From Dendrophyllia cribrosa (taxonomy: Eukaryota; Cnidaria; Anthozoa; Scleractinia; Dendrophylliidae): 64,000 nucleotides of DNA. The DNA is taken from assembly GCA_024195265.1 (NCBI GenBank), contig JAJLRJ010000004.1, forward strand, positions 39,253,030 to 39,317,029, given 5' to 3'. Shown in pieces: positions 31,128 through 41,088 of this stretch. The notes beneath the pieces were generated by a model. That model was not told the DNA's origin, did not search any database, and saw only the letters and a program-made list of their open reading frames with translations. The position numbers and the translations under genes were made by a program. Numbering within the stretch: the stretch's first letter is position 1; each line of letters begins with the position of its first letter.

Positions 31128-31180
31128 TGCACTAGTCATTTGTTTCCCCCACCCCCCCACCCCCGCGACATAGCGGGGGA
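31128..31180 (+). repeat. Left TIR of element A
   Basis: TGCACTAGTCATTTGTTTCC, then a C-rich stretch and CCCGCGACAT; it matches the right TIR read on the minus strand. Confidence 0.85.
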
Positions 31181-31299
31181 ATTTGCAAACAAGCGACGCT
31201 AATTTATGGTAATTCCACCACCCACCAGGGCAGAATATCTTTGCAAAACCACCACCCCCCGGGGGTTCCCGAGAACATTCCACAAACAATGGTCACAAA

Positions 31300-32130
31300 T
31301 AAGTGTATCAAATCCTTTTGTTATGTATTTATTCTTAAAACAGAAAAACAACATTAAACCATATTTTTACTTGCACATTGTTTGTGTACTTAGACTAATG
31401 GTTACACATGAATGTATCAAATCCTCTTGTTGTGTACTTTATATTCTCAAACAGAAACATTAATCCATCACTTATTGATTGTTTGTTTACTTAACAATTA
31501 CACATGAATGTATGAAATCCTCTTGTTGTGTACTTAATATTCTCAAACAGAAACATTAAACCATCATTTGCTGATGGTTTGTTTACTTCACAATTACACA
31601 TGAATGTATCAAATCCTCTTGTTGTGTACTTTATACTCTCAAACAGAAACATTAAACCATCATTTGCTGATTGTTTGTTTACTTAACAATTACACATGAA
31701 TGTATCAAATCCTCTTGTTGTGTACTTTATATTCTCAAACAGAAACATTAAACCATCACTTATTGATTGTTTGTTTACTTAACAATTACACATGAATGTA
31801 TGAAATCCTCTTGTTGTGTACTTAATATTCTCAAACAGAAACATTAAACCATCATTTGCTGATTGTTTGTTTACTTAACAATTACACATGAATGTATCAA
31901 ATCCTCTTGTTGCGTACTTAATATTCTCAAACAGAAACATTAAACCATAATTTGCTGATTGTTTGTTTACTTCACAATTACACATGAATGTATGAAATCC
32001 TCTTGTTGTGTACTTTATACTCTCAAACAGAAACATTAAACCATCATTTGATGATTGTTTGTTTACTTAATGGTTACACATGCCAGTGAATGCTCTTGTT
32101 GTGAATTTATTCTCAAACAGAAATTAACAT
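31300..32130 (+). repeat. 96-bp minisatellite, about 8.5 units
   Basis: CACATGAATGTAT or a variant recurs at 31405, 31501, 31597, 31693, 31789, 31885, 31981 and 32077. Every interval is exactly 96 bp, with point differences but no indels. A divergent partial unit precedes the first and the last is degenerate. It lies just downstream of the element A gene stop, in its likely 3' UTR. Confidence 0.93.
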
Positions 32131-32137
32131 TTAAGTA

Positions 32138-35100
32138 TCACTTGCACAGAGGGCAGAACCACTCCTTTGTTTTGGGTTTCCCCTTAAGACCCACGCACTG
32201 AAGATGGAACCACTCTACGCTACATTCTGCTCCATCGCAGCCAACCATCAGGCCATACTCGCCTTGGTTACATAAACAGTACAAGACCTCTTCATCTGCA
32301 AATTAATAGTTTAGGGTCTTAATAAATGTTGATATTAAAGATATTTTACTATTGTATTTCTTGTTTGGTTGTCTTGAAATGTGTGGTACATACCTTGACA
32401 CTCGGGACAAACCCATTCCATAGGTGGAGGATGTTTCAACCCAAGGCAGTCTAGACAGTATGTGTTGCTACATGTGGCTGAACAAGCAAGCTCTGCCTTG
32501 TTGCTGCACACAATACAAGAACCAATACTAGCATCATCTGCAAGATAAGGAAAAAATTGTTCAGACAAAGCATAAGAAGTAAAACATTTTTATACATCTG
32601 AACCAGATAAAAAATATGACATACCCGAGTTGTTCTTCTTCTTGTTCTTGTTCTTTCTAGCAATTGCTGCTTGTTTCCGTCTTTCATTTATACCACGGTA
32701 GTGATCTAGATGCCACTCCACCTCTTGGGCAGGCAGCAGAAGTTTCTCAGCCAGCTCTTCTACTGGAGTACCTTTGGGGTAATAGAAGACTGATTAACTG
32801 AATGGTCATTGATATTATTGGCTGCTAAGTATATTGTCATATTACTCACTGTTAGTTTTAGCTGCAGCCTTCAACTCTACACTAGGTGGTGACATCATTC
32901 TGTTTTCATCGTTATCAGTACACAGCAAGTCTTCGGGCTTCATAAAGCTTCCAGGCCTTTTTGGGTCAGGGACAGGAATTGGCAACCAGGTAACTGAGGG
33001 TCCACCTTCATACCATTTCATTTCACAGCTGGTTTCACCATTCTTGCATCGTGGATGAATACATTCAGGTTCCCCCCAGAGAGTTAAATGGAAGATGTAA
33101 TTGGATGGTACAGTCTTGCTCATGTGCCGATTACGTACATCCCAGATTTCTTGAAAATATCTGTGAAGGTCTGGATCACTGGTTCTAAGTAGCTCTTTGT
33201 CCTTCTTGTTGCCTTTGAGAAAGGTGAGTAGCTTTTGGCGGCGTGACATATCAGACTCTGCCCCCTTGAAGAGTTGAACTGGGCTTCCACAGCAGCTGGA
33301 CCCTTGGACACGGTCAATGTACACCTCAGTGGCAATTTCCAAATTTTGCTTGAGCTTTGGCTTGTCTAGTCCACCAGGGCCATAATTGCTTCCACTTAGA
33401 GTTGACGGAATAAAAAGGTTGGTATGCGCTTGAGAAAGCCCACCGTTCATTAATTCCACTCGGTTTAAGTATGACCCTCCACTGTGACGGGATGTCACAA
33501 GAGTAGCAACCTTAGCTTGTTTTACATGTCGCTCTGTCCAGTAAAACTGAACTTCTACATGGCTTGGACCTTCGTCGCTTGCTCCATCGACGCGAATGCA
33601 GTCTATAGGCCTGTTTTCCACCCATGGTTGGAGATCTGGTGAATTCTGCAGTAATTCCAAATCAGCCGCATGTTGAGCTGCATTCTTTGGATAAGTGAAG
33701 TGGGGCTTAACGACGCCCACACATGCCTGCTTGCTGGTGTCGGTTTCCATAAACAGGTAAGAAGTGGTTTGAATCACTGAAGGGTAATCATTTACAAAGT
33801 CTGTTCGTGTTGTCAGTGCTGGCCTGTTGGTGAGAGTTATGGTTTTAGAGTGCTTGTGATCATATGTTGTGTCAAGTCTAAAACCAGACTGGTCATCACG
33901 GTTTAAAAGAACTTTGTTGCTGCCCTCCTTCAGTTGAATATAATCAAGCCCTCGATACAAAGCACAACTCCAGTGTGCATCTGGATTTATTCGAACAGAA
34001 AACCCCTTTCGAGCCCGCCTGCATGTAATCTTGGCCACATTCTGGTATCGTTTAGTGGAGAGACGCCTCTTGTTCCGGGCATAACAAAGCTGCACTATGC
34101 TTCCATAACCAATTTTCGTATTGTATTTCTCTTCAAGATGAGCTTGTATAGACTTATAGGTAACTTTTTTCCCACGTCGCCTTTCACCGTCGAAAGTAAA
34201 AAGTCCCGTTCTCCTCCACGCATCTGCTCCGACTTTTTTGCTCTCAACAAATTCTTCCATATCCTTTCCAATAGTTGGAAACTTTTTCTGTAACCTACTT
34301 GCTGATGGAGGGATTCTACGTTTAAGAATGCATGTTTTGGCTATTTCTTCAGCCATTCTTCTCTCTGCTCGCCTCCTAATGCGCAACCTTTCAGATTGTA
34401 TTTTCCTTAGCGTTTCCTCCCCAAGCACATCCGTTATTTCCACTTCTTCCCAGTGTTGATCCTCATCATTGTCAGAATCTGCTTCAATTTCTGGTTCATC
34501 TAAGGGACGCCTCCTTTGCACCTCTAAGAAAGCTTGACGTGACACTTCGACGCGCATTTCTTCGTCTAATGTAAGATCACTGAAAGGCAAGTGGTCTGTG
34601 AACTGAAGGATGACGTGATTAAGCACTTCAGAAGTATAGTTCCTTAAGTACTGTCTGACCTCCTCAAAAAAAGTGAACCAATTTAAGTCATGTTCTCTCA
34701 ACCAGCTTAAAAGAGTATCATTGGATGGTGCTGGATTTGTTAATGTTGTTGTTTTGCTGATAGCATCCGGATCATATGAACTATTCGGGTCACTGGGTGT
34801 GGTAGCTAGCTGTAATGCTGGGTTCACTATTGCTGTTCTGTTAATAGCATCGTGATCAAATGAATTACTCGTGCCACTGGGTGTGGTAGCTACTCCAACA
34901 GTAGCTTGGGGATCCTGCTTTCTGCTGGATGTGTCAGTATTTTCACTGGGATGAGTTAGATCTGGAGGCTCAACATCTTCCACATTGCCATCATCACATA
35001 CATCATCAGTTGGCATTATTTCACACGCTTCAACTTCAAAGTCAACACTGTCCTCCTCTTCTTCGTTTATGGCATCTTCTAACCTAAGTGACCTCATCAA

Positions 35101-38059
35101 GGCTTTGTCTTCAATCTCTGCAAGCTCAATAATTGATTGTCTTATTTCTGCTGCTTCTTGAAGAGCCATGCGCACCTTTTTACTTACATCTTTGTATGAC
35201 GCAATTCCATAAACTTTCCGCGCCTGTTTTGAGGTAAGACCAGCTCCCTCACACGCAGCAAACTTAAGCAGTGTGCGGTCCTTATCACTGGATGCTAGTT
35301 TACACAGGGCTGTCAAAGTGGATTTATCTAAACCTTGAACCTGTTCAGGGACAATCAGCTTGTTAATCCAGTGCACCAGTCTCTTGTAATCAACAGAAGG
35401 GCAGTACTCAGTTACATGCAGTCGAGAACCCAAGTACCTTTCAAGTGCAAATATTGCAACTGGTAGCTGAAGCAGTCTCCTAACAGCTTTGTCTGATTTG
35501 TATGTCTTACCAGGAAAAAATTTGTGGTACAGGTCTGAAACGTTGACAATTCCTTTGTCCTTAATGTAATTTGCAATTTCAATCAAAATGCTACATTCTT
35601 TGCAACTAACAGAATGATGCTGCTGGCAATGTCTTCTTCTAAAACTGACAAATTCAACGAGAGTAAAACTGTTAAGTTTTGATATGTACAATGAGTTTTC
35701 AACTTGACATGAGGCCACGTTCCCCAATGTTGACCTTGTTAAAGACAAGAATGTTGCGTATTTGCCAGCAGCGTATGGGATAAAAAAGAGTTATCGCAGG
35801 TTTGGTTAGGTTGAAGGCCATCAGCAGGGTCTGCTTGTTTGGTGTCTGAACTGTTTGATGCTATCTTGGCAACTTTAGGATCTAGTACAGTAGGTAGTTG
35901 GCCATCAACATGCTCTGGCGTCTTACTGGAAACTTGGGGAAGGAAACTTGTGATTTTTGCATGACTTGTGTTCAAGGATCTTGTCTTTGCATTTTGCTTT
36001 TCACATTTTCTTCTCTTGGTTTGAAGCATGGTGAGTTCTTCCTCTAGTTTTCTTTTTCTTGCCCTCAGTTGCGAAATCTGTTCTGTTAAGGTCGCAGCCT
36101 GGCCAAACTGTTTCACACTGATATGTTTTTCGCGCTGCCTGGTCAGAAGTCCCATTTGTGTGTCAGAATCAGTTAAGTCTTCTTGAATCTCTTGCAATCT
36201 TTTTACTTTAAGCGAGTCACTAAGATACCCTCTCTTTGGTGCTCCAGTACTACTCTCTCCAAATTGTTTTGATCTGCTTGTCTTTTTCTTATAATTGTAG
36301 CCACTATTGTGCAACATCTTGCGCGCCAATTCACATAGTTTTTGTTTATCATTCACTACGCTTGGGTCATCTAAAGCTAGTTTAAATGCTGCTTTGTTGA
36401 GTTCTGTATAGTAACTGAACATCTTATGACTAGGGTCAATCTTTGAGGTGTCATATATCTTACTCTTCTCTTGAATTTCCTTCTCATCAATCTTAACTGT
36501 AACTGTGTTCTGCTCAACAGGCATAACCTAGAAAGTAGACCAATTTCTTATTTCAGCAACATCGAAGTTATAGTAATTTGGGGAGGGGTGGCGAGGAGCA
36601 TCGCCATTTGCGGTCATTTCCATATTTGGTCAAAATATCTATACTATGGCCCACAGACTTTGACCACACTCTTCTGTCTACAATGCATCTCCATAATGAC
36701 TAATTCGTTGCATGCGCACATCAATGAGCTAAAAAAATGTTTTGAAGAGCAACTTGCCTGCAACTCAGGGCCAATCGTTAAACTGCCATTGTTCACAAGA
36801 ATTGTAGATTGGTGGGATCTTGAAATAGTACTTGGAGGAGTACTCACAGCCTCAGATGACCTGGATTCAGGTAAACTGGATGACGAATTTCTGGTAAGCT
36901 GTTAAAAAATGGTTAAGATAAAGATGAGCATTCAATAGAAGTCTGATCTTAATAAGAAAACTTTCACTTTTACTTAGTTTTCAGAATTTGAGCAACCAGG
37001 ATACATCCTGGTTGCTAAAAAAAACATAGGAAAGGAAATACAAACAACGAAAAAGGCAACCCTTTTTTAAATGTAGATGTGAAATTCAAAACAAAAATAT
37101 TCCATTGCCACAGAGAGATTTTGGGTTGCGTAAACACATAAAAACCTTCATACAAATGACAAACACTATATTTGTCACTTGAAAATTCCAGAAGGAATGG
37201 GGGATCCTTTATCAAATTCCCCTCATGGTATGGGTATGGTTTATTTTTGAACAACCAGAGACAGAGTTGATACACTAGAACACAGAACCTGTCACACCAA
37301 ACAAGAAACAAGTGTACATCATCATGGGAGTTCTGTGTAATTTCCATATATAATAAAAATGCGCAAAACTGCAGAATGGCCCATGAAACATAATCAGCAT
37401 TTTAAAAATGATATTATGACAAACCTCAAATACAGTTCTTAATAATAAGTATGTACTGTACCTTGATATGTTTTAAAATAAGCAGAATGTCTCCCACAGC
37501 AGTTATTCCAATTTCACGGATGCTCTCTTTGGTGATATCATTAAGCACATCCTCTGTTATGCTTAAGAAGAAATTAAAAAGAAAATACATCAGAAAACCC
37601 TTGACCTCAAGAAGGCAAGAAATATTAAATCATTCTGAGGTAGGAGGAGGTCACAAAAAATAGAAAGAAAATTTAACTAGGCATTATTTGTAAACATGAG
37701 GTTCTAGATCTGGGCTAGGCTGAGAAGATATATTAAACGATTAATTCTTCCAAAAAGTGTATTTGTGAATTGTTGCATTGTGTACTTACCGATTATCAAC
37801 GAAAAGCTTAGCATAGTCCTCAGCTCTGTCCTCGAGGCCAGCCTTTGAAAAAAAAACCTTCCATCTAGAATGATGAAAGTGAAATCACTTATTAAACGGA
37901 ATACGCGCAACAACAAAGCCTAAATATAGTGTCTGGATAAAAGGTCAAAGTGTTTTCTTTCAATTGCCATCATACATATCAATGGATGCATTCATTTACA
38001 TAAGAATTGACAAGGATTGTTTACACTTACTTCGTCACGCTTTCCGCTCTGTTCGCCAT
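32138..38059 (-). CDS. Element A protein: SAM, coiled coil, DDE-like region, tandem PHD fingers (-1 frameshift)
   Basis: Eight exons: 38031-38059, 37790-37864, 37462-37561, 36758-36898, 32850-36527, 32625-32771, 32394-32537 and 32138-32295. Phases agree at every junction if one -1 shift occurs at 35781-35787. The product would be about 1,490 aa. Residues about 1-68 form a SAM domain ([36 protein letters not shown]). A Ser/Pro-rich linker and a Lys/Glu-rich coiled coil ([19 protein letters not shown]) follow. After the shift lies an acidic and then basic region, and a core with spaced acidic motifs ([29 protein letters not shown]) that resemble a D-D-E triad. The C-terminus has two Cys-rich PHD modules ([45 protein letters not shown]). 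It is probably the transposase; the DDE call is tentative, the SAM and PHD calls firm. The intron after exon 4 has a GC donor. Confidence 0.75.
32850..35789 (-). CDS. Element A -1 frame segment (DDE-like core)
   Basis: The frame is open from a TAA immediately upstream of the slippery site to the donor at 32849. The first ATG lies about 190 codons in, past conserved-looking sequence, so independent initiation is unlikely. Candidate catalytic motifs are [20 protein letters not shown] and NRVELMNGG. The C-terminal part includes a Cys/His cluster ([21 protein letters not shown]). Confidence 0.72.
35739..36527 (-). CDS. Element A zero-frame segment (coiled coil, ends TAA)
   Basis: This is the upstream half of the large exon. 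It enters from the acceptor TTTCTAG at 36528 in phase 0 and runs to TAA at 35739. Without frameshifting the gene would make a SAM plus coiled-coil protein of about 375 aa, which could act as an accessory or inhibitory short product. The frame passes straight through the slippery heptamer and terminates about 40 nt later. Confidence 0.72.
   Translation of the reverse strand, partial: VMPVEQNTVTVKIDEKEIQEKSKIYDTSKIDPSHKMFSYYTELNKAAFKLALDDPSVVNDKQKLCELARKMLHNSGYNYKKKTSRSKQFGESSTGAPKRGYLSDSLKVKRLQEIQEDLTDSDTQMGLLTRQREKHISVKQFGQAATLTEQISQLRARKRKLEEELTMLQTKRRKCEKQNAKTRSLNTSHAKITSFLPQVSSKTPEHVDGQLPTVLDPKVAKIASNSSDTKQADPADGLQPNQTCDNSFLSHTLLANTQHSCL
35781..35787 (-). promoter_or_regulatory. Candidate -1 ribosomal frameshift site U UUU UUA
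   Basis: In the upstream frame the codons read AAC TCT TTT TTA TCC, giving the heptamer T TTT TTA in exact X XXY YYZ register. Slipping back one base continues ATC CCA TAC into the long downstream frame. TAA in the -1 frame lies just before the heptamer. A homopolymer sequencing error or an indel in this copy is the main alternative. Confidence 0.6.
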
Positions 38060-38267
38060 GTTGGATCACTGCTTCTAGGAATGCATCCAGAATCCTTTGC
38101 ACGCAGTCTCCTCGTGAGCGCTTTGTTTTCGAAAAATTCCCCGTCATTTACCCCGGGGTTCCCCGGGGAAATTTAAGGTCGAGCAAATTTGAGGTAAAGT
38201 CCCTGGGGGTCTGGGCATAAAATCATCGCAAACCTCCAGTAATTCCACCGCTATTGCCCGACAAAGT

Positions 38268-38317
38268 CCCCGCATGTCGCGGGGGTGGGGGGGCGGGGGA
38301 AACAAATGACTAGTGCA
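38268..38317 (-). repeat. Right TIR of element A
   Basis: The complement of the left TIR: minus-strand sequence begins TGCACTAGTCATTTGTTTCC and continues through a C-rich run to CCCGCGACAT. Confidence 0.85.
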
Positions 38318-39617: not shown

Positions 39618-39714
39618 CTGACGTCACACGGAAACCTGGTGGAAATTTGTGACGTCAGTCAAAAACAACAATTTTCAGAGCGATTTTGATTTCGGAGGAC
39701 CGACATTATAAACT

Positions 39715-41088
39715 ATGGATATTGAAGATTTTTTTGAGGAGTGGGATGAAGACGATTTGGTAGAACTTTTAGAAGACGACGAGAGGGTGATAAACCCGGT
39801 AGAGGCTGTAGAGGCAGAAGACAGTGAAGGCGAAGAAGAAAGCGAGAACGAAGATGATGGCAGTACGGTGTTTACATGTAGCAAGTGTAAAAAGCGGTAT
39901 CATCTGAAAGCGTGGTTGCAAAAACACGAAAACACTTGCAGTGGCGAGGCACCTACCAAAAAAGGCAAAGCCAAATTGTCCGTACACCAGAAGAAAACCA
40001 GAGAAGTGCTTTCTTCCCTCGGTTTTGATGATTTCTTTACATCTGAGTGCGTGCCGAGTTTAATAACATCACTCAACAAATTATCTGCAACAAGCAGTGA
40101 AACGGCCAAAATACGAGGACCCAGGTTCGCATCTGCACAGCAACAAGCTGAGAAACTTAAAACAGAATTGGAGAAAGGAGACGAGAATGTCATGTCATTT
40201 TTTCGCTACGTTGGTGCGACCATTTGGACGATAGTCTTCGCGCGGGATGATCTTGTCAGCTCGTCACGCAAACAACAACATATTGCTCAACATCTGCATG
40301 AATTTCGACAAGCGGCAGTGCTGACATTAAAGTGGTCTGAACTGTGCCGTATTGCATGCATAAATTCTTCTGATACTCTTTTACTGCAGATGATGATAAG
40401 TGAGTGTTTTCGGAACATCTCTTCTTTCCGACATAAATCTGTAGTCCACGCGATGAAGTTAAGAGAGGAATACGCCGGAGAGACTTCAAGCAAACCATTC
40501 CTTACTCCGCTTGAGAAAGACATAGTAGCCTACATTGCTGGGTACGTCTGCAGAAAAACGAAAGATCGACTACAACGGTATAGCTGTGAAAGGTTCTCGA
40601 GTATAGTCACCGTATTAAATCAGAAGTTACCAGGCGTTAAAACACAAGCACCTACAATGTCGTACCCCAACTTAATGACACTGTCTTTGACTAGAGGAGG
40701 CCTTTACCAAGTGGATCACACAACATTTAATTTCTTTTGTTATCTCGAAGTTTCAGTTCGCCCTTTCTTAAACTTAACAAGTTTTCGTTGCAGCGCCCGA
40801 CGGTCGGACAGTAACCTTCTGGAGCAATTAATAAACAATTCTTCTCTACTGAAGCCAACCTGGCCTTTTTCGTCAACGCTTTCATCGGAAGACAGCAATT
40901 TACTTTTAAAACTCTTCGTCGACCTTTATTTTCGAGTGAGGAAGTGGTCGTACCTCAAAACTTACAAGGAGGAAAGAAAATTGAAAGAAAAAAAAAGCAG
41001 CTCGGCACAAACTGCTGAATTACACGGAAAGGACAGCATCAGAAAAGCTCTGATGTCCTCCAGCGCCATTGACATCGATAAGTTATAA
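39715..41088 (+). CDS. Element B zinc-finger protein (transposon protein, family unrecognised)
   Basis: A single-exon 457-aa protein starting 98 bp inside the left TIR. Residues 1-50 are strongly acidic (DIEDFFEEWDEDDLVELLED). A C2H2-like finger follows at about 54-76 (CSKCKKRYHLKAWLQKHENTC read as C-x2-C...H...C). A globular region contains MSFFRYVGATIWTIVFARDD and then AYIAGYVCRK at about 271-280. The Y-I-A-G-Y motif recurs in several transposase families such as P-element/THAP9 types, but I see no complete DDE set here. It may be a DNA-binding partner of the catalytic protein, or a shortened transposase. The frame is intact, with no stops. Confidence 0.75.
   Translation: MDIEDFFEEWDEDDLVELLEDDERVINPVEAVEAEDSEGEEESENEDDGSTVFTCSKCKKRYHLKAWLQKHENTCSGEAPTKKGKAKLSVHQKKTREVLSSLGFDDFFTSECVPSLITSLNKLSATSSETAKIRGPRFASAQQQAEKLKTELEKGDENVMSFFRYVGATIWTIVFARDDLVSSSRKQQHIAQHLHEFRQAAVLTLKWSELCRIACINSSDTLLLQMMISECFRNISSFRHKSVVHAMKLREEYAGETSSKPFLTPLEKDIVAYIAGYVCRKTKDRLQRYSCERFSSIVTVLNQKLPGVKTQAPTMSYPNLMTLSLTRGGLYQVDHTTFNFFCYLEVSVRPFLNLTSFRCSARRSDSNLLEQLINNSSLLKPTWPFSSTLSSEDSNLLLKLFVDLYFRVRKWSYLKTYKEERKLKEKKSSSAQTAELHGKDSIRKALMSSSAIDIDKL

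Follow-up and report, generated by a model that had tools for sequence, protein, structure and literature searches.

A cut-and-paste transposon of the coral Dendrophyllia cribrosa whose transposase is probably expressed by programmed -1 ribosomal frameshifting

The element and its overlapping frames

The window, a stretch of 64,000 nucleotides of the Dendrophyllia cribrosa genome (contig JAJLRJ010000004.1, positions 39,253,030 to 39,317,029), contains a whole DNA transposon with a multi-exon gene on the minus strand (Table 1). The ends lie within a target TWA, and TWA was repeated on the opposite side in seven of the eight copies in which both ends were found, L009 being the copy that differed.

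Table 1. Features of the transposon and its gene (window coordinates)
Feature	Position	Strand	Remarks
Whole DNA transposon, 7190 bp	31128..38317		ends TGCACTAGTCATTTG.../...CAAATGACTAGTGCA, inserted at TWA; from copy comparison and flanks
Left terminal inverted repeat, outer part	31128..31150	+	
Right terminal inverted repeat, outer part	38295..38317	-	
Exon 1	38031..38059	-	start codon, GT donor
Exon 2	37790..37864	-	SAM domain, first part
Exon 3	37462..37561	-	SAM domain, second part
Exon 4	36758..36898	-	linker, GC donor
Long exon, ORF1 part	35739..36527	-	NCD2-like region, coiled coil, linker; zero-frame stop TAA 35741-35739
Slippery heptamer T TTT TTA	35781..35787	-	zero-frame codons TCT TTT TTA
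ORF1 (zero) / ORF2 (-1) overlap	35739..35790	-	52 nt
Long exon, ORF2 part	32850..35790	-	N-terminal helical and Cys/His region, DDE RNase H-like core (residues about 593-838)
Exon 7	32625..32771	-	basic region after core
Exon 8	32394..32537	-	first PHD-type finger
Exon 9	32138..32295	-	second PHD finger and stop codon

The initial annotation had recognised a SAM domain and a coiled coil in the upstream frame and a DDE-like core followed by PHD exons in the downstream frame; both assignments were confirmed, and an NCD2-like region was added upstream. It had also described an overlap of about 50 nt in the -1 register and a downstream frame that lacked an ATG for about 190 codons. The overlap is bounded by the position from which ORF2 is open after a TAA (35790) and the end of the ORF1 stop codon (35739), and the first ATG in the ORF2 of the window family is codon 208. 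ORF1 has 262 aa within the long exon, which is entered at 36527, and ORF2 has 982 aa in the -1 frame. The in-frame near-cognate codons before residue 26 of ORF2 are ATC (codon 4), TTG (15 and 22) and GTG (25). Residues 6-18 form a predicted helix within a stretch that can be aligned across the family, the block mean pLDDT being 58 for residues 1-10 and 90 for residues 11-20.

The heptamer, in the context AAC TCT TTT TTA, follows the TAA of the -1 frame and is in exact zero-frame phase, as had been stated initially and as could be seen directly in the sequence. It is an in-phase X XXY YYZ heptamer inside the overlap with the downstream frame at -1, the arrangement of a programmed -1 frameshift site, and no second canonical heptamer is in phase anywhere in the ORF1 exon (786 nt). 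When the codons were shuffled 20,000 times, T TTT TTA occurred in phase within the overlap in 0.085% of the shuffles and any canonical heptamer in 4.9%. A stimulatory RNA structure 5-9 nt downstream is usual for -1 frameshifting, although not obligatory. Folding downstream of the heptamer was weaker than in shuffled sequences (z +1.6, MFE) and middling to weak relative to the rest of the transcript; no stem-loop was found there by MFE, and no H-type pseudoknot in a crude scan. Consequently, a low basal rate of frameshifting or an unrecognised stimulator must be assumed.

Copies of the element in the genome

A search of the 627 Mb genome with the junction segment found at least 11 copies of the element. 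Both ends were present in eight of them, including the window copy, while L010 was without the left end and L015 and L018 were without the right; in a twelfth locus, L030, an internal deletion takes out the junction. The other ten copies differed from the window copy by 1-3 bases over the parts compared, one of these differences being unique to the window copy. Outside these copies, the closest genomic match reached 67% over 261 ORF2 residues, at a locus with stops, and the closest intact one reached 60%. The element looks very recently active, so that the ideas put forward below are directly testable.

The initial annotation had proposed that the T run be aligned over the genome copies. The alignment gave six T (T6) in 11 of the 11 copies found, all at separate sites, with no T5 or T7 version, and ORF1 and ORF2 were intact in every one. 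Runs of 4, 5, 7 or 8 T in the junction context were absent from the loci compared. Since copies at separate sites share T6 and have both frames intact, it is the T6 form that has spread, and no T7 donor is visible among the loci compared. The loss of a T by mutation or assembly error, initially regarded as a serious alternative, is contradicted by these results. Transposable elements can be mobilised in trans, so T6 could in principle be an inactivating deletion, or an assembly error, in copies that were moved by a T7 source element. However, besides the uniform T6 and the intact frames, no close relative with another arrangement was found, and the same -1 relation recurred in other families (below). 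We regard a T7 source as the least probable of the explanations considered, and as hardly credible.

Two minor features of the copies were noted. At window position 33076 (ORF2 residue 905), the window copy alone carries a missense change, at a residue that hardly varies and on which the ten other copies agree; this copy may therefore be defective. L015 and L018, which are about 314 kb apart on C3, both cease to match at one and the same internal point (window 37481), which suggests a shared truncated form or a duplication.

Related families in the same genome

The family set consisted of loci at which the junction was covered (Table 2); L042, L045 to L047 and some further genome matches were left out, and L040, L043, L049 and L053 had no readable junction. 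A family was considered anchored on both sides when tblastn tied the upstream zero frame and the downstream -1 frame to a homologous protein. The -1 relation at NNU UUU was found in six families anchored on both sides, the window family and five others, and in three that were partly anchored (L031, L044 and L048). The stretch of L031 homologous to ORF1 was out of frame with the tail that reaches the run; in L048, the stretches homologous to ORF1 and to ORF2 were both in frames other than those used at the run.

Table 2. Codons at the run and frame relation in the families of the D. cribrosa genome
Locus or group	Zero-frame codons	Frame relation	Anchoring and remarks
Window	TCT TTT TTA	-1 frame open beyond run	both sides anchored (tblastn)
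L038/L039	CAT TTT TTG	-1 frame open beyond run	both sides anchored; heptamer T TTT TTG
L032-L037	AGT TTT TGT	-1 frame open beyond run	both sides anchored; T TTT TGT
L056	GAT TTT TGA	-1 frame open beyond run	both sides anchored
L041	GAT TTT TAA	-1 frame open beyond run	both sides anchored
L054	GAT TTT CTT	-1 frame open beyond run	both sides anchored; T TTT CTT
L031	AAT TTT TAG	-1 frame open beyond run	ORF2 side anchored only
L048	TCT TTT TAA	-1 frame open beyond run	agreement by open frames alone
L044	CTT TTT CTC	-1 frame open beyond run	ORF2 side anchored only; T TTT CTC
L051	TCT TTT TAG	ORF2 at +1	misfit; broken copy
L055	AAC TTT GTG	ORF1 and ORF2 parts share a frame of 245 codons	misfit; decayed, U_UUU gone

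The arrangement was present in six of six loci of the near-identical, intact L032-L037 group (99.2-99.8% to L032) and in both members of the intact L038/L039 group, which are 99.8% alike, one sister having an N in ORF1. These two groups and that of the window are intact and recent; L031, L041, L044, L048, L054 and L056 all show at least partial decay. A canonical heptamer occurred in just two of the nine families (window and L038/L039). A stop codon directly follows U_UUU in L031 (UAG), L041 (UAA), L048 (UAA), L056 (UGA) and the broken L051 (UAG), and the ORF1 of these loci thus ends Phe-stop at the putative slip site. Upstream of the run in the ten unfused loci, third codon positions were T in 467 of 1633 cases and the Phe codon was TTT in 17 of 25, so that the presence of NNU UUU in all ten exceeds what composition would give, bearing in mind that the families are related and not independent. 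U_UUU and the -1 relation were kept under divergence, the misfits being the broken L051 and the fused, decayed L055.

The length of the T run across the families was just 4 to 6 T, which is probably too short for slippage by RNA polymerase II. This bears on the suggestion that the polymerase adds a U within the run, bringing some of the mRNAs into frame, an event with which the frame relation is compatible and which has bacterial counterparts, since a review by Atkins describes a substantial number of IS elements that use slippage (PMC5009743). Given the short runs, transcriptional slippage is judged very improbable here.

The same loci bear on splicing, in which an intron would remove the overlap and join ORF1 to ORF2, with the T run belonging to the 3' splice site; such an intron had been foreseen as an objection in the initial annotation. 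In each of the nine other unfused loci, the run is followed within 2-8 nt by the end of an AG. In the window, the ORF1 exon offers 4, 15 and 4 in-frame GT donors, respectively, to the three AGs closest to the run; a GTAAGA donor lies at 36463 and another at 35926, and both would be joined to the AG that ends at 35703. The scan across the overlap covered canonical GT-AG introns. However, the first AG in the window ends at 35735, 47 nt past the run, and no in-frame join would spare ORF2 residues 1-18, which hold the predicted helix and the family-alignable stretch. Because each usable AG lies beyond the conserved helix, splicing is disfavoured in the window. Moreover, 1) database relatives P0124-P0128 read SNK, not SSK, at the 35926 donor, where, to judge from the protein, the GT has probably been lost, 2) the base after the AG is at codon position 1 in two relatives, 2 in three and 3 in four, unlike one conserved intron, and 3) splicing leaves unexplained why ORF1 stays open up to the run and ends there. 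Splicing is therefore considered unlikely, though less so than the other alternatives.

A further locus, L057 (C20:7437250-7438500), has an ORF1/NCD2-like exon without an ORF2 match and is possibly a host NAB-like gene.

Relatives in the databases

The named relatives include sequences from Montipora, Exaiptasia and Paramuricea. ORF1 queries yielded 43 proteins, 17 of which have a Phe among the last four residues. In 16 of the 43 the Phe fits the motif and stands at the end or within two residues of it (HFLS, SFLL, HFLC, HFLV, HFIV, DF etc.); the remaining one, P0126, has a Phe in the terminal region, but the protein has run into another frame. The motif lies further in in two (P0123 and P0135) and is absent from 24 further matches (25 of 43 including P0126), many of them fragmentary or no longer in frame, but P0124 and P0147 appear to be genuine exceptions.

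Two of the proteins could be placed on the D. cribrosa loci. P0148 aligned to L056 and P0158 to L041, each up to its last residue, which falls exactly at the run, and at both runs ORF2 continues at -1. In P0123, from another data set, the zero frame stays open across the run and leads into the tail seen in the window with one residue different; P0123 is for this reason also T6. The close ORF2 relatives P0003, P0004, P0006 and P0008 start at codon 25 and are not fusions, which fits T6 but depends on the gene caller. An ORF1 protein (P0132) and an ORF2 protein (P0005) are separate entries whose contigs, of 8848 bases each, are probably one contig. In the comparison with relatives that had been proposed initially, the genome copies, the diverged families and the database relatives were in agreement with a programmed -1 shift, and nothing in them spoke for a lost T. 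A search of IMG/VR for the DNA of relatives gave 24 pattern matches, none of which was confirmed by tblastn.

Many of the database ORF2s begin with Met near the homologous place, and in the L032 group ORF2 contains an ATG shortly after the run, as might be expected if ORF2 were translated independently, by reinitiation or from a non-AUG start, with ORF1 as a separate protein. In the window family, however, an initiating ribosome would have only the near-cognate codons listed above before the distant first ATG, and in-frame fusions occur among the relatives: P0035 is a single 1431-aa chain that carries ORF1-like and ORF2-like parts, and L055 has both in one frame. Independent translation is accordingly rated slightly below transcriptional slippage, as very doubtful.

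Five named public gene models, P0022, P0033, P0043, P0044 and P0096, have no ORF1 part and start inside or near the start of ORF2. An annotation pipeline that overlooks a frameshift would be expected to produce headless models of this kind.

Probable programmed -1 frameshifting

Programmed -1 ribosomal frameshifting at U UUU UUA is the best explanation of these observations and a probable one, and the reading proposed in the initial annotation gains support, at the level of sequence comparison, from the genome copies, the diverged families and the database relatives. Counted against it were the failure of MFE folding and a crude pseudoknot scan to reveal a stimulatory structure, the small number of canonical heptamers, the at least partial decay of six families together with the frame disagreements in L031 and L048, the early ORF2 ATG of the L032 group, the AG near the run in relatives and the +1 relation in L051.

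Most ribosomes would read ORF1 to its stop codon, giving a 377-aa SAM/NCD2-like/coiled-coil protein. A minority would slip back one base at the heptamer, where the Phe and Leu tRNAs could re-pair with UUU UUU, and would then continue through ORF2 and the PHD exons to produce the full transposase. We infer a shift at the ribosome, not during transcription, and a low efficiency; the ORF1-only product may serve as a regulator or dosage partner. Both tRNAs could re-pair in the window and L038/L039 families (UUU UUA or UUU UUG to UUU UUU). In the other families, only the P-site Phe tRNA would re-pair well, and in four of the nine a stop codon comes next.

On balance, and with less assurance, we favour the broader view that animal cut-and-paste transposons of this superfamily have kept a -1 ribosomal shift at U_UUU between a SAM/NAB-like regulatory part and a DDE transposase, some of them with a zero-frame stop in the A site. 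In members with UAA, UAG or UGA after U_UUU, a ribosome would face either termination or a slip, and these variants would be natural test cases for how that choice is made.

Relation to known systems

The arrangement resembles that of the bacterial IS3-type orfA/orfB elements. In these, the second of two frames overlaps the first, often in the -1 register, and encodes the catalytic part, the first encodes a DNA-binding or regulatory part, and the transposase is the fusion of the two; a low rate of frameshifting is the norm in bacterial insertion sequences (PMC5009743). In contrast, the element described here is in an animal-type genome, has a spliced mRNA and carries SAM/NCD2-like and PHD domains, and the likeness is one of arrangement. 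The HIV-1 gag-pol site is U UUU UUA (PMC5009743), identical to that of the window in heptamer and phase. Unlike retroviral gag-pol, the window has no downstream stem-loop or pseudoknot that we could find, and the element is a DNA transposon, not a retroelement. In the fused relatives P0035 and L055, an ORF1-like part is followed by an ORF2-like part, as in the window family, but within a single frame, so that no frameshift is needed.

Ciliate frameshifting is generally in the +1 direction. Frameshifting has been proposed for two eukaryotic DNA transposons of ciliates, Oxytricha TBE (PMC5009743) and Euplotes Tec2, in which the shifted gene is a tyrosine recombinase according to a cited title (PMC4724952, PMC3212892); most TBE frameshifts are, however, treated as mutations or artefacts (PMC4724952). 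The likeness to the window family lies in their being eukaryotic DNA transposons with proposed frameshifting. Frameshifted transposases are thus already known in bacteria and proposed in ciliates. In the open-licence literature searched, we found no animal cut-and-paste transposon described as using a -1 frameshift; the initial annotation had remarked that such elements rarely do, and the present case is new as far as we could find. If the interpretation is correct, animal DNA transposons share a mode of expression with retroviruses and bacterial insertion sequences, the shift would be a simple means of keeping the transposase scarce relative to the regulatory half, and the headless form of several annotated relatives would be partly accounted for.

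Transposase class and other features of the locus

The ORF2 core is RNase H-like with conserved acidic residues, as in DDE/D transposases. No transposase family matched ORF2 in Pfam-A at E values up to 1, nor 15 relatives at 0.1, in what was a sequence-profile test only. Foldseek returned nothing at E<=0.001, and a match to Mos1 was found only on a second look.

Five groups, IS481EU, Zator, Harbinger, CACTA and Tc1/mariner, were considered, and no superfamily name was assigned. The 3-bp TWA target duplication is a PIF/Harbinger trait and was present in seven of the eight two-ended copies; a recognisable Harbinger-type transposase domain was absent by the Pfam-A sequence-profile test. Tc1/mariner was rejected because the apparent duplication is TWA and not TA. 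CACTA/EnSpm elements have ends that start with CACTA and a 3-bp duplication immediately beyond them; here the ends read TGCACTAG, and the flanks directly outside CACTAG are ATG and CAT, which do not form a repeat. IS481EU was set aside as a group of parabasalids with other duplication lengths, and Zator is a 3-bp-duplication group (PMC10045372).

Self-comparison of the window revealed a tandem array with units of ~96 bp (about 31315-32100), which lies within the element and close to the left end. A separate open frame of 458 aa lies outside the element at 39712-41088 on the plus strand.
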